Below are positions 2,659 through 7,102 of a stretch of 50,726 nt of DNA, piece after piece. The position numbers and the translations under genes are program-made. The DNA is from Pseudomonadales bacterium (GTDB taxonomy: Bacteria > Pseudomonadota > Gammaproteobacteria > Pseudomonadales > JAHRWD01), in NCBI GenBank assembly GCA_016763075.1, contig JAESUM010000033.1, forward strand, positions 1 through 50,726, written 5' to 3'. The notes below the pieces were generated by a model that did no database searches, had not been told where the DNA came from, and worked only from the letters and a program-made list of their open reading frames with translations. Position 1 is the stretch's first letter. The number at the start of each line of letters is the position of its first letter.

Positions 2659-2865
2659 TTGGGCAAAACTAGCTCAAGCGTATTTTACTTGAAAACCCGG
2701 AGGGAAAACTATATCTTGTGGTCACTTCTTTAGAAAAACACATTATATTGTGTTGTGGGGAACCCGGTTAGAATCTGGGACTGTCGCGCAACGGTATTGA
2801 AGGCTACGGGTTTTATTCCGCTGTACCTTCTAAGTCCGATACCCGCTAACGAATAAACTGCCCAA
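2659..2865 (+). ncRNA. Cobalamin (B12) riboswitch core in the nrdAB leader
   Basis: The conserved core is readable: GGGGAA at 2757-2762, CCGGTTAGAATCTGG at 2764-2778, the CGCGCAACGGTA box at 2785-2796, and AAGTCCGATACCCGC at 2832-2846, ending with CTGCC at 2858-2862. A 7-bp outer stem is possible (TTGGGCA 2659-2665 with TGCCCAA 2859-2865). B12 riboswitches in front of B12-independent ribonucleotide reductases are a known arrangement: B12 shuts off the class I enzyme when a B12-dependent class II enzyme can take over. The core is secure. The 5' boundary is not, because a possible promoter and NrdR-like sites overlap the 5' half. Confidence 0.85.
2706..2753 (+). promoter_or_regulatory. Pair of NrdR-box-like palindromes
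   Basis: The known NrdR consensus is acaCwAtATaTwGtgt. The sequence at 2738-2753 (ACACATTATATTGTGT) differs at one position, and that at 2706-2721 (AAACTATATCTTGTGG) at about three. Their starts are 32 bp apart, three helical turns, as in known NrdR operator pairs. A possible promoter, TTGAAA (2689-2694) and TATCTT (2712-2717) with a 17-bp spacer, overlaps the first box. NrdR is the ATP/dATP-sensing repressor of ribonucleotide reductase operons. The palindrome at 2738-2753 could instead simply be a variable hairpin of the aptamer. Confidence 0.6.
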
Positions 2866-3031: not shown

Positions 3032-5899
3032 GTGCCTTTGCAAAATTCCGCGTCATCGAGTGCAGCGTTAGCTAACTCTGCGCTCTCCAATTCAGCAGCA
3101 GCTGATACACCCTTACCCCAATCCAGTACATCAAACAGCCCGTCAGATTATTACGTTATACGGCGCAATGGCACGCGTACGCCATTCGATAAAAGTAAAA
3201 TTGTGGTGGCCATCACTAAAGCGTTTTTGGCAGCAGAAGAAACCAATGGGGCAGATTCAAGCCGTATTCATGAACTGGTTAACCAGCTCAGCAGCAAAAT
3301 TACTGCGGGGTTGTTTCGCAGCCATGGGGTCAACGGCACTGTACATATTGAAGATATTCAAGACCAAGTTGAGCTGGCCCTTATGCGTAGCGGTGAGCAT
3401 AAGGTTGCCCGCGCGTATGTGCTGTATCGTGCAAACCATGCCCAGCAGCGCCGCGAAATAGCCAGTGAGTCCGCTGATGATGCTAAGCCGTTAAAAATTA
3501 CTCACATAGATGGCACGCAAACATCGCTCAATCTTGATGAAATAAAACAGCGTATTGTTGAAGCAGCTTTGGGTTTAGAGCAAGTGGATACCAGCCAAGT
3601 ATTTGAAGACCTGCAGCGCAGCCTGTTTGACGGCATGCGAGATAAAGATCTGTGCACCGCTTTAGTTATGAGCGCCCGAGTCCGCATAGATCAGCAACCT
3701 GATTACAACTATTTGGCCGCGCGTTTGTTGCTCGGAAATATGCGTAGCGAAGCGCTTAGTTTTGTCCACGACAAGCCCTATTCGCCCAGCCCAAAACAAA
3801 TGCCGAGCTTATATGGGGAGTACTTCACGGCCTATATACACCGTGCTGAAAAATTACAATTACTCGACCCTGAGCTCAGCCGCTATGATTTAAAAAAATT
3901 GGCGGCGGCGATAGAGCCATCTCGTGATTTACAATTCACCTACCTTGGTTTGCAAACGCTTTACGACCGTTATTTTATACACAGTGATCAAATACGCATG
4001 GAGCTACCGCAGGTGTTTTTTATGCGGGTGGCAATGGGTTTAGCGATCAACGAAATAGACCGAGAAACCCGCGCGATCGAATTTTATCAATTGCTTAGCT
4101 CGTTCGATTTTATGTGCTCAACCCCGACTCTTTTTAATTCTGGAACCTTACGGCCGCAGCTTTCTAGTTGCTACTTAACCACAGTACCTGACGACTTAGC
4201 GGGGATTTACGATGCCGTAAAGGACAATGCATTGTTGTCAAAATATGCAGGCGGACTGGGTAACGACTGGACCCCTGTGCGTGGCCTTGGTGCAGCTATC
4301 AAAGGCACCAATGGTGTGTCACAAGGTGTAGTGCCATTTTTAAAAGTAGCCAATGATACCGCCGTGGCGGTGAACCAAGGCGGTAAACGTAAGGGCGCAG
4401 TGTGTGCGTATTTGGAAACATGGCACATCGATATAGAAGAGTTTTTGGAGCTGCGTAAAAATACCGGCGATGAACGTCGCCGCACTCACGATATGAACAG
4501 CGCAAACTGGGTGCCAGATCTGTTCATGAAAAGAGTGGCTCAAGAAAGCGAATGGACGTTGTTTTCCCCGGAGGAGGCGCCAATGCTGCATGAGTTATGC
4601 GGGGCCGAATTCGAACAAGCCTATGTTGAGTTAGAGCAGCGCGCTAGCCGTGGTGAACTGCGGCTTCATAAAACCCTAAAAGCGGTAGACCTGTGGCGCA
4701 AAATGTTGGGGATGTTATTTGAAACAGGCCACCCGTGGATCACCTTTAAAGACCCCTGCAACCTACGCTACACCAATCAGCACGTTGGGGTAGTTCATAG
4801 CTCGAACTTGTGTACCGAAATAACCTTGCATACCAATGCACAAGAGATTGCAGTCTGTAATTTGGGCTCGGTGAACCTTCCCGCGCATGTCGACAAAAAC
4901 GGCGTAGATCAACCCAAGCTCAAGCGCACCATAAGCACCGCCATGCGAATGTTAGATAACGTGATTGACTACAATTTTTATAACGTACCACAGGCGCGTA
5001 GTTCTAATCTTCGGCATCGGCCGGTTGGGCTCGGCGTCATGGGCTTTCAGGATTGCCTCTATAAACTGGGTATTGCGTATAGCAGCGAAGAGGCCGTAGC
5101 CTTTGCAGATGAGTCGATGGAGATGGTGAGCTACCGCGCAATTGAGGCCTCATGTGAGCTAGCAAAGGCGCGTGGAAGTTACTCCAGTTACAAAGGTTCA
5201 CTGTGGAGTCAGGGCATTTTACCGATCGATTCGCTACAAATACTGGCGGATCAACGCGGTGAGTACCTGCAGGTAGATCGCACTGAAACACTAGACTGGC
5301 AATACCTACGCGATCAAATAAACCAGCATGGCATGCGCAACAGTAATTGTTTGGCGATCGCGCCCACCGCGACGATTTCTAATATTTGTGGTATCTCGCA
5401 ATCAGTCGAGCCGACTTATCAAAACCTGTACGTTAAATCTAATTTGTCCGGCGAATTCACAACGGTAAACCCATATTTAGTGGCAGATTTAAAAGAGCTG
5501 GGTTTGTGGGATGCCGTGATGGTCAGCGACTTAAAATACTTTGATGGTTCTGTAGCATCCATTGAGCGAGTTCCGCAGCGCATTAAAACCTTATACGCGA
5601 CTGCATTTGAGATAGATTCACGCTGGCTAATAGAAGCGGCCGCACGGCGCCAAAAATGGTTGGATCAATCCCAAAGTCTAAATTTATATATGGCCGAACC
5701 CTCCGGTGTAAAGCTCGATAATCTCTATAAATTAGCGTGGGTTCGAGGCCTAAAAACAACCTATTACCTGCGCTCATTAGGTGCAACACATCTTGAGAAA
5801 ACCTCTATTGAAGAAGTAATCGATAAGCAAAACCCACAGCAAGAACAACCACCAAATATCTGCTCAATATTGGAGCCAGACTGCGAAGTTTGCCAATAG
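3032..5899 (+). CDS. nrdA: Ribonucleoside-diphosphate reductase class Ia, alpha subunit
   Basis: The product is 955 aa and reduces NDPs to dNDPs with NrdB. There are two consecutive ATP-cone domains (about 40-135 and 153-240), as in Pseudomonas-type NrdA; these bind ATP/dATP for activity control. Catalytic residues are visible: the redox pair Cys380 (SSCYL) and Cys609 (AVCNL), the radical site Asn592-Leu-Cys594-Thr-Glu596, Tyr911-Tyr912 for radical transfer, and a C-terminal Cys951-x-x-Cys954 for re-reduction. I chose the GTG at 3032 because GGGAGG (3021-3026) lies 5 nt upstream; the frame could also open at TTG 3011, but that has no binding site. The Ser/Ala-rich first 38 residues are a flexible extension. 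It is followed by nrdB, 60 nt downstream, and controlled by the B12 riboswitch leader. Confidence 0.95.
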   Translation: MPLQNSASSSAALANSALSNSAAADTPLPQSSTSNSPSDYYVIRRNGTRTPFDKSKIVVAITKAFLAAEETNGADSSRIHELVNQLSSKITAGLFRSHGVNGTVHIEDIQDQVELALMRSGEHKVARAYVLYRANHAQQRREIASESADDAKPLKITHIDGTQTSLNLDEIKQRIVEAALGLEQVDTSQVFEDLQRSLFDGMRDKDLCTALVMSARVRIDQQPDYNYLAARLLLGNMRSEALSFVHDKPYSPSPKQMPSLYGEYFTAYIHRAEKLQLLDPELSRYDLKKLAAAIEPSRDLQFTYLGLQTLYDRYFIHSDQIRMELPQVFFMRVAMGLAINEIDRETRAIEFYQLLSSFDFMCSTPTLFNSGTLRPQLSSCYLTTVPDDLAGIYDAVKDNALLSKYAGGLGNDWTPVRGLGAAIKGTNGVSQGVVPFLKVANDTAVAVNQGGKRKGAVCAYLETWHIDIEEFLELRKNTGDERRRTHDMNSANWVPDLFMKRVAQESEWTLFSPEEAPMLHELCGAEFEQAYVELEQRASRGELRLHKTLKAVDLWRKMLGMLFETGHPWITFKDPCNLRYTNQHVGVVHSSNLCTEITLHTNAQEIAVCNLGSVNLPAHVDKNGVDQPKLKRTISTAMRMLDNVIDYNFYNVPQARSSNLRHRPVGLGVMGFQDCLYKLGIAYSSEEAVAFADESMEMVSYRAIEASCELAKARGSYSSYKGSLWSQGILPIDSLQILADQRGEYLQVDRTETLDWQYLRDQINQHGMRNSNCLAIAPTATISNICGISQSVEPTYQNLYVKSNLSGEFTTVNPYLVADLKELGLWDAVMVSDLKYFDGSVASIERVPQRIKTLYATAFEIDSRWLIEAAARRQKWLDQSQSLNLYMAEPSGVKLDNLYKLAWVRGLKTTYYLRSLGATHLEKTSIEEVIDKQNPQQEQPPNICSILEPDCEVCQ

Positions 5900-5959
5900 G
5901 CTGCCCCTGTTATATTTGTGCAGTAGCGCTGTACAAAGAATAAATAAAGGAACATGAAT

Positions 5960-7102
5960 ATGTTGAATTGGGATGACCCGCTGGCACCAACCAGCAGTGG
6001 CTTGGAAGTGGAAGCTGACCCGGTGGATAAAAATTCGAATAGGAATAGATTAGCAAACGCTGCACTTGATGATGGTGCATTTGCCGAAGCATATGAACCA
6101 CCACAACCGGTAAATGTTGAAGATAAACGAGTGGTAAATGGCAACACCGATATCAACCAACTAGCACCGTTTAAATACCCTTGGGCCTGGAACTATTTTT
6201 TAAATGCCAATAAAAACCATTGGACACCACTTGATATAAATATGACGCAAGACCTGCATGATTATCAGCATAAGTTAACGACTGAAGAGCGCCATGTATA
6301 TGAAACGGTGTTGGCTTATTTAACTACTGCAGATATTTTAGCTATGCGCAATATTGGCTTAGCCGTCATGGAAAAAATGACTGCGCCAGAGCTTCAAATT
6401 TATCAAGCTCGGCAAGTCTATGAAGAAGCATTACACACATGGACGTACCAACACTGTATTGAATCGATGGGTCTTGATCAAAGCGAAATATACAACCGAT
6501 ACCGAGTGGTACCGCAAATACACCGGAAAATTCAGATATGTAATCGAAGGTTAGATTCTATATTACGCCCCGGTATTGATTTAAATGACCGAGCTGAACT
6601 AGAAAATTTTGCATTGGCATATTTCTTTTTTGCTGCGGTGTTTGAAGGGTGCTGGTTCTACAATGGATTTAGTCCAATATTTTCGTTACAACGCCGTGGC
6701 TTGATGAAAGGAACGGCAGAACAATTGCAATACATCATGCGCGATGAAGTGATGCACTGCTCTTTTGGAATTAGAGTATTAAAGCAGATATTCAAGGAAG
6801 AAAACCTACAGTTAGACCCCGTTGCAGTGCGCGAGATTTGGGATGAAGCAGAGGCGGCTGAAATAGAATATGCTGACTATTTATTACAAGACCCAATTTT
6901 GGGTTACGCAAAAGAAGATCACGTTGAGCAGTTTCGTTTTATGGCAAACCGCCGCTCGCGTGCCTTGGGGTTTGAAGAGCCTTTTCCCGGGGCTAAAAAT
7001 AGTTTGCCCTGGCTTGATGAGCAAACAAATTTACGAAAAGAGAAAAACTTCTTTGAAACTCGAGTGACGGAATACCAAACCGGTGGTGCTTTGGTTTGGT
7101 GA
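5960..7102 (+). CDS. nrdB: Ribonucleoside-diphosphate reductase class Ia, beta subunit
   Basis: The product is 380 aa, the diiron-tyrosyl radical subunit that partners NrdA. Iron ligands are recognisable: Asp125 in LTTADIL (by position), Glu156 and His159 in EEALH, Glu229 in VFEGCW, and Glu263 and His266 in DEVMH. The radical tyrosine is present four residues after the histidine (Tyr163), so this is a tyrosyl-radical and not a tyrosine-less class Ic protein. I chose ATG 5960 because AAGGA (5947-5951) is 8 nt upstream; an ATG at 5954 is only 2 nt from it. The gene is 60 nt after nrdA with no terminator between, so it is cotranscribed under the same riboswitch. Confidence 0.95.
   Translation: MLNWDDPLAPTSSGLEVEADPVDKNSNRNRLANAALDDGAFAEAYEPPQPVNVEDKRVVNGNTDINQLAPFKYPWAWNYFLNANKNHWTPLDINMTQDLHDYQHKLTTEERHVYETVLAYLTTADILAMRNIGLAVMEKMTAPELQIYQARQVYEEALHTWTYQHCIESMGLDQSEIYNRYRVVPQIHRKIQICNRRLDSILRPGIDLNDRAELENFALAYFFFAAVFEGCWFYNGFSPIFSLQRRGLMKGTAEQLQYIMRDEVMHCSFGIRVLKQIFKEENLQLDPVAVREIWDEAEAAEIEYADYLLQDPILGYAKEDHVEQFRFMANRRSRALGFEEPFPGAKNSLPWLDEQTNLRKEKNFFETRVTEYQTGGALVW

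Follow-up and report, generated by a model that had tools for sequence, protein, structure and literature searches.

An NrdR operator pair superimposed on a cobalamin aptamer: a predicted two-input leader upstream of class Ia ribonucleotide reductase genes

The leader of the nrdAB genes in a Pseudomonadales bacterium appears to combine two regulatory inputs on one stretch of nucleotides, an NrdR operator on the DNA and a cobalamin aptamer in the RNA, controlling a class Ia ribonucleotide reductase (RNR) that is itself B12-independent. We consider this reading likely, with a probability of roughly 0.84, on the strength of sequence comparisons made around a 50,726-nucleotide stretch (assembly GCA_016763075.1, contig JAESUM010000033.1), hereafter called the window, and its relatives.

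According to this two-input reading, at high dATP an NrdR tetramer would occupy both boxes of the operator, over the -10 element and approximately +15 to +30, and block initiation. P2 is the first helix of the aptamer; a transcript escaping this block would start at its foot and fold into the cobalamin aptamer. Once B12 is bound, a kissing loop between L5 and a downstream CGCG would lower nrdAB expression, and the cell would use its B12-dependent NrdJ. In Streptomyces nrdABS, adenosylcobalamin (AdoCbl) reportedly lowers expression too. The second box would be double-coded, as DNA operator and as the RNA 5' side of the peripheral P2-P3 arm; since this arm is free in length and sequence, the aptamer could have taken shape around an operator that was already there. 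We infer the start site, NrdR binding, the ligand and the direction of the switch. There is also a more intricate version, which we find rather unlikely, in which NrdR on box 2 kinks the template, or blocks it, during synthesis of the aptamer, so that dATP would alter folding or pausing and with it B12 sensitivity, in addition to initiation, the P2-P3 arm having evolved from the operator.

Results

An NrdR operator pair and a cobalamin aptamer upstream of nrdAB

The window encodes on its forward strand the class Ia large subunit NrdA (3032-5899; NF005544, 1615 bits) and small subunit NrdB (5954-7102; NF005550, 351 bits). For nrdA we chose the GTG at 3032, behind GGGAGG; the open reading frame as listed opens at TTG 3011. 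Upstream of them lie two NrdR boxes, box 1 (AAACTATATCTTGTGG, 2706-2721) and box 2 (ACACATTATATTGTGT, 2738-2753), neither assigned to a strand and separated by 32 bp from start to start, about three helical turns. Box 2 has no mismatch to the NrdR box consensus ACACWNTATNTWGTGT.

To score the pair we used a two-box matrix whose training set comprised 40 regions upstream of nrdA from the same order, all of them lacking a visible riboswitch core; the RF00174 matches that these 40 genomes do have all lie away from nrdA, judging by coordinates. A pair above threshold was present in 33 of the 40 training loci (one of the 33, L005, is doubtful), mostly 31-32 bp apart. With this matrix, derived from riboswitch-free nrdA promoters, the window pair scores 30.7, the top value among the nrdA-linked aptamer loci scored. 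The next-best pair across the 50.7 kb scores 15.4, and the highest in 200 windows simulated with a first-order Markov model is 23.2. Both boxes have C at position 4 and G at position 13, in a numbering that we mapped onto the GC pairs in the excerpted text of PMC9110341. As far as comparison of sequences goes, these results confirm the predicted operator pair at 2706-2721 and 2738-2753, which a sequence-only reading of the window had first described as two NrdR-box-like sites 32 bp apart.

The aptamer was recognized as an RF00174 match at 2714-2864, which overlaps both boxes and passes the gathering cut-off narrowly (35.5 bits against 31.5). All its elements lie on the forward strand. In a fixed-register comparison of 28 related loci, the P2 helix is formed by a 5' strand at 2726-2733, between the two boxes, and a 3' strand at 2846-2853; in the window seven of the eight positions pair, with one U.C mismatch (2729/2850). 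Box 2 itself forms the arm between P2 and P3, an RNA hairpin at 2737-2754 (AACACA-UUAUAU-UGUGUU) that also appears in the full-length fold. The core runs from GGGAA through P4 and L5 into the P6 arm (2758-2822, end approximate) and includes L5 (CTGTCGCGCAAC, 2781-2792), while the RF00174 match and the core pattern place the B12-box equivalent (AGTCCGATACCC) at 2833-2844. Downstream, an ACC-TCGCGTAAA-GGT hairpin can be read at 2867-2881. The CGCG in its loop (L13, 2870-2874) is complementary to the CGCG in L5, with which it could form a kissing interaction. The L5 motif CGCGCA is found in 28/28 loci, and the downstream CGCG in 24 by script and in the remaining four by eye. As for the expression platform, a terminator scan and a full fold of the window leader gave no convincing OFF structure.

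Promoter and start of transcription

A predicted promoter, TTGAAA-N17-TATCTT, spans 2689-2717 on the forward strand, with its -35 element at 2689-2694 (comparable in 27/28 related loci) and its -10 element at 2712-2717, inside box 1. Two such sites were found in a 611-bp stretch against 0.8 expected; a promoter-like site is also present at 2513-2540. From the promoter scan, the predicted start is an A at 2724, 7 nt after the -10; transcription probably begins near 2724, at the foot of P2. The promoter-like match overlapping box 1, the likely start near 2724 and the presence of dATP- and B12-sensing elements within approximately 100 bp, all anticipated by the sequence-only reading, find support in the sequence. 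That reading had also considered NrdR binding inside the transcribed aptamer, which would hold for box 2, within the predicted RNA; box 1 would be promoter DNA, outside the transcript. It had further expected a riboswitch working with a shortened 5' end. As the predicted start stands at the foot of P2, no part of the aptamer would be cut off; the relatives start at the same helix, and nothing is shortened.

Transcription could instead start well upstream, for instance from the promoter-like site at 2513-2540, in which case both boxes would be transcribed and the segments 2659-2665 and 2859-2865 would form a real outer stem. This appears improbable to us. The 7-bp complement of these segments is perfect, yet it is out of register with the P2 common to the relatives, and the outer stem once assigned to 2659-2665 was given up, as they hold no in-register counterpart. 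Several other loci also have 7-10 bp helices in front of box 1, at unrelated places, and the complement is best taken as chance. Moreover, -35 and -10 elements with 17-18 nt spacing stand directly before P2 in 27/28 loci. Immediately upstream of the nrdA leader, on the same strand, there is a 124-aa rhodanese-like open reading frame (2103-2477; named by eye). Longer nrdA transcripts could arise in addition by read-through from this frame, but they would not be the main design.

Recurrence of the layout in the order

We searched 390 genomes of the order for NrdA and chose 55 that had several RNR matches and the window's NrdA type, a few of these RNR matches being split or doubtful second ones. 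An RF00174 scan of the 55, with stricter filters that possibly missed weak aptamers and with nearness to nrdA judged by eye from coordinates, gave 27 matches just upstream of nrdA. All 26 that were scored have a pair 30-32 bp apart, with scores from 11.0 to 30.7; the weakest is barely above the 99th percentile (10.4) of 1040 simulated upstream regions, whose maximum of 20.1 exceeds most of the 26. The 27th locus, L072, did not satisfy the core pattern and was included manually; its pair scores 22.8. Together with an nrdD leader also added by hand (L112), they make up the 28-locus set, in which L064 was retained throughout as an exception.

In 27/28 loci we found a sigma-70-like promoter whose elements are 17-18 nt apart, its -10 in box 1, and P2 between the boxes; of several possible promoter placements near box 1, the best was taken for each locus. 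The P2 5' strand ends 13-16 nt past the -10 (+/- one), and box 2 begins a few nucleotides later. In the fixed register 147/168 cells of P2 pair, whereas shuffling the 3' strands gives 137.0 +/- 2.0, and 0/5000 shuffles reach 147; this shuffle ignores kinship, which is close among many of the 28 loci (family f19). The C and G of the box motif are both present in box 2 in 24/28 loci, and in box 1, aligned by best score, in 12/28.

As controls we took every other RF00174 match in these 55 genomes, 95 in all, of which 40 were scored first and then the remaining 55. Three of them, at 17.2, 21.0 and 15.5, turned out to be RNR cases. The one at 17.2 (L112) precedes nrdD and nrdG, encoding a class III reductase, and the other two (L219 and L220) precede proteins with the same start as L112's NrdD, an assignment by resemblance of the protein start; among the controls, downstream genes were identified for these three alone. 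None of the 92 remaining cobalamin aptamers has a comparable pair in place: the highest score, 11.7, comes from boxes that precede the aptamer match by about 190 nt, and the runner-up scores 8.5.

The nrdD leaders L112/L114, L219 and L220 (G375:C21, G305:C1 and G145:C1) have operator and aptamer superposed, L219 and L220 as judged by eye. So the superposed layout would not be limited to nrdA.

Constraint on box 2 as DNA and as RNA

Within the 28 loci, the spacing between box 1 and box 2 stays at 30-32 bp, while the distance from box 2 to the GGGAA of the core varies from 1 to 74 nt. In 23/28 the left half of box 2 pairs with a distant strand and not with its own right half, and the motif is kept nonetheless, which indicates that the palindrome is dispensable for the RNA. 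In four loci, the window among them, box 2 forms the arm hairpin by folding on itself, as it does in part in L064. The RNA arm seems to be under selection as well, since the five bases that open box 2 pair, in at least four of five positions, with the five bases beside the core in 19/28 loci (best of four offsets, unshuffled), and the first pair varies. All five pair in 12/28, all of them f19, the first pair being C-G in five, A-T in four and G-C in three. According to these comparisons, box 2 appears to be a DNA operator that also codes for an arm of the aptamer, and the constraint acting on it seems to be both DNA and RNA.

Could the operator be a relic, NrdR control having been replaced by the riboswitch and box 2 kept only for the sequence of the RNA arm? 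In favour of this, the C4/G13 combination is missing from box 1, aligned by best score, in 16/28 loci. Against it, the window pair has the highest score of its set, NrdR is present in the genome, and the arm can take on many sequences and shapes. We regard a relic as very improbable. Even less credible is that the palindrome at 2738-2753 is only an RNA hairpin of the variable arm, resembling an NrdR box by chance: the predicted window RNA does fold into this hairpin, and a hairpin is part of the Rfam model at the same position, but a palindrome conserved only as RNA, the contrary case named in the sequence-only reading, was not seen, since the distance to the promoter and the motif are kept where the arm pairs differently (box spacing of 30-32 bp against a core distance of 1-74 nt, distant pairing in 23/28 loci) and 0/92 non-RNR aptamers contain a comparable pair.

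Distribution outside the order

We scanned 80 named NrdA loci with Rfam, a few of which have too little upstream sequence to tell, and found a riboswitch upstream of nrdA in 14, seven gammaproteobacterial and seven alphaproteobacterial. In all seven gammaproteobacterial leaders the predicted -10 (TATCTT or TATATT) follows the -35 by 17 nt and lies six bases inside box 1. In at least four of them the boxes flank P2 (clearly in L154, L162 and L193; with 5 bp in L140), and its position relative to the boxes is ambiguous in L142, L150 and L188. Six of the seven alphaproteobacterial leaders have weaker pairs (13.2-21.5) in the same place, with poor -10 matches; in the seventh, L171, no pair was found in the riboswitch leader. 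Judging from these sequences, the layout is possibly present in Bradyrhizobium relatives too. Cultivated carriers include Bradyrhizobium strains (L183-L186 and L189) and Nitrococcus mobilis (L188). A Bradyrhizobiaceae nrdA leader, L195, keeps the NrdR pair and has no Rfam riboswitch, its aptamer having apparently eroded. No RF00174 match was found near nrdA in G093, presumably a close relative of P. aeruginosa.

An NrdA tree was built from the 98 of 110 loci with coding sequence at hand, in which the order's 27 riboswitch carriers are represented by only two. Seven changes of the riboswitch label are needed on this tree, at least four of them on well-supported branches, which implies repeated gain or loss of the combination. 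The NrdA of the window does not join the main clade of its order but groups near L140, L154, L142 and L150, which also have such leaders; its long branch makes this placement uncertain. nrdAB and the leader may have moved together. Two metagenome-assembled genomes titled Klebsiella pneumoniae (L170 and L173) have an NrdA that groups with unrelated gammaproteobacteria and is 63-64% identical to that of the window; their labels look wrong.

Operator and aptamer do not always coincide. The best pair of L064 (G213) lies upstream of P2. Five family-f5 genomes whose NrdA is of another type (about 31-32% identical) also have riboswitches before nrdA; in these the NrdR pair ends on the -10 and the aptamer follows, as judged by eye (less clearly in L119). 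These six leaders indicate that superposition is not obligatory and that a side-by-side arrangement is also possible.

NrdJ and the second riboswitch of the genome

The window's genome encodes an NrdR protein (contig G000:C52; 217 bits, over the family cut-off) and a B12-dependent NrdJ (TIGR02504, 574 bits). nrdJ has its own NrdR pair about 90 bp upstream (L052:3459-3505, contig G000:C18; score 24.2, 31 bp apart) and no RF00174 match, both matches of the genome lying elsewhere. The second cobalamin riboswitch is on another contig than nrdAB (G000:C68:13240-13497, reverse strand); it precedes a 664-aa open reading frame resembling an outer-membrane receptor and one of 202 aa resembling a cobalamin adenosyltransferase, both named by eye.

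In the first sample, a NrdJ-like match was obtained in 8/8 genomes with riboswitch and nrdA and in 2/40 riboswitch-free genomes, NrdJ-like meaning a weak match to NrdA (about 25% identity); the riboswitch-free G077 and G089 show still weaker, split matches. The association refers to this first sample, as the 55 genomes were picked for several RNR matches. The sole same-genus genome in our samples, G001 (99% complete), has a NrdJ-like match and no NrdA match, and judging from it nrdAB may be an accessory backup.

Discussion

As an architecture predicted from sequence, the superposition of operator and aptamer is well supported. One stretch looks selected at once as the operator of a repressor on DNA and as part of a ligand-binding RNA, and deoxynucleotide level and B12 supply would both gate a class Ia RNR through a single short leader. 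A natural comparison set is at hand, with arms of approximately 20 to 94 nt around an operator fixed relative to the promoter and leaders whose pair lies outside the aptamer. For annotation, the rule would be that the aptamer of such leaders begins at about +1, between the boxes.

Dual control of nrdAB by NrdR and B12 is already known. In the literature that we searched, mostly open-access papers, we found neither a description of an operator superposed on an aptamer nor a paper joining 'NrdR box' with 'riboswitch'. According to PMC9110341, NrdR in the presence of dATP and ATP occupies two boxes spaced by about three turns and kinks both; in PMC12051234, binding is best at integer helical turns. 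The 32 bp of the window agree with this spacing. The nrdA promoter of P. aeruginosa resembles the window in that NrdR-box1 overlaps the -10, and mutation of its box 2 gives expression like that of an nrdR mutant; it differs in that no riboswitch on nrd genes is reported in the available portion of that source (PMC4409342).

Other parallels are the nrdAB and nrdDG leaders of Propionibacterium (Cutibacterium) acnes, where NrdR boxes and an annotated cobalamin riboswitch occur together on operons for B12-independent RNRs and NrdJ is the B12-dependent alternative. Within the extracts of PMC3848588, the authors propose from transcript data that B12 lowers nrdAB and NrdJ takes over, and speculate that a promoter at the nrdDG boxes would yield a transcript without a working riboswitch. 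nrdAB differs from the window in having a single box that overlaps the promoter, and the same extracts do not describe an operator inside the aptamer for these leaders. Streptomyces coelicolor likewise has a class Ia RNR with both inputs: a B12 riboswitch that places nrdABS under AdoCbl control (Borovok 2006, as cited in the excerpts of PMC5962746 and PMC4991794) and NrdR binding at nrdAB (PMC9110341, excerpt). A regulator protein is also combined with a B12 riboswitch in the eut systems of Listeria and Enterococcus as outlined in PMC4991794 (excerpt); there, however, EutV binds RNA, whereas the NrdR of the window would bind the DNA of the very stretch that encodes the aptamer.
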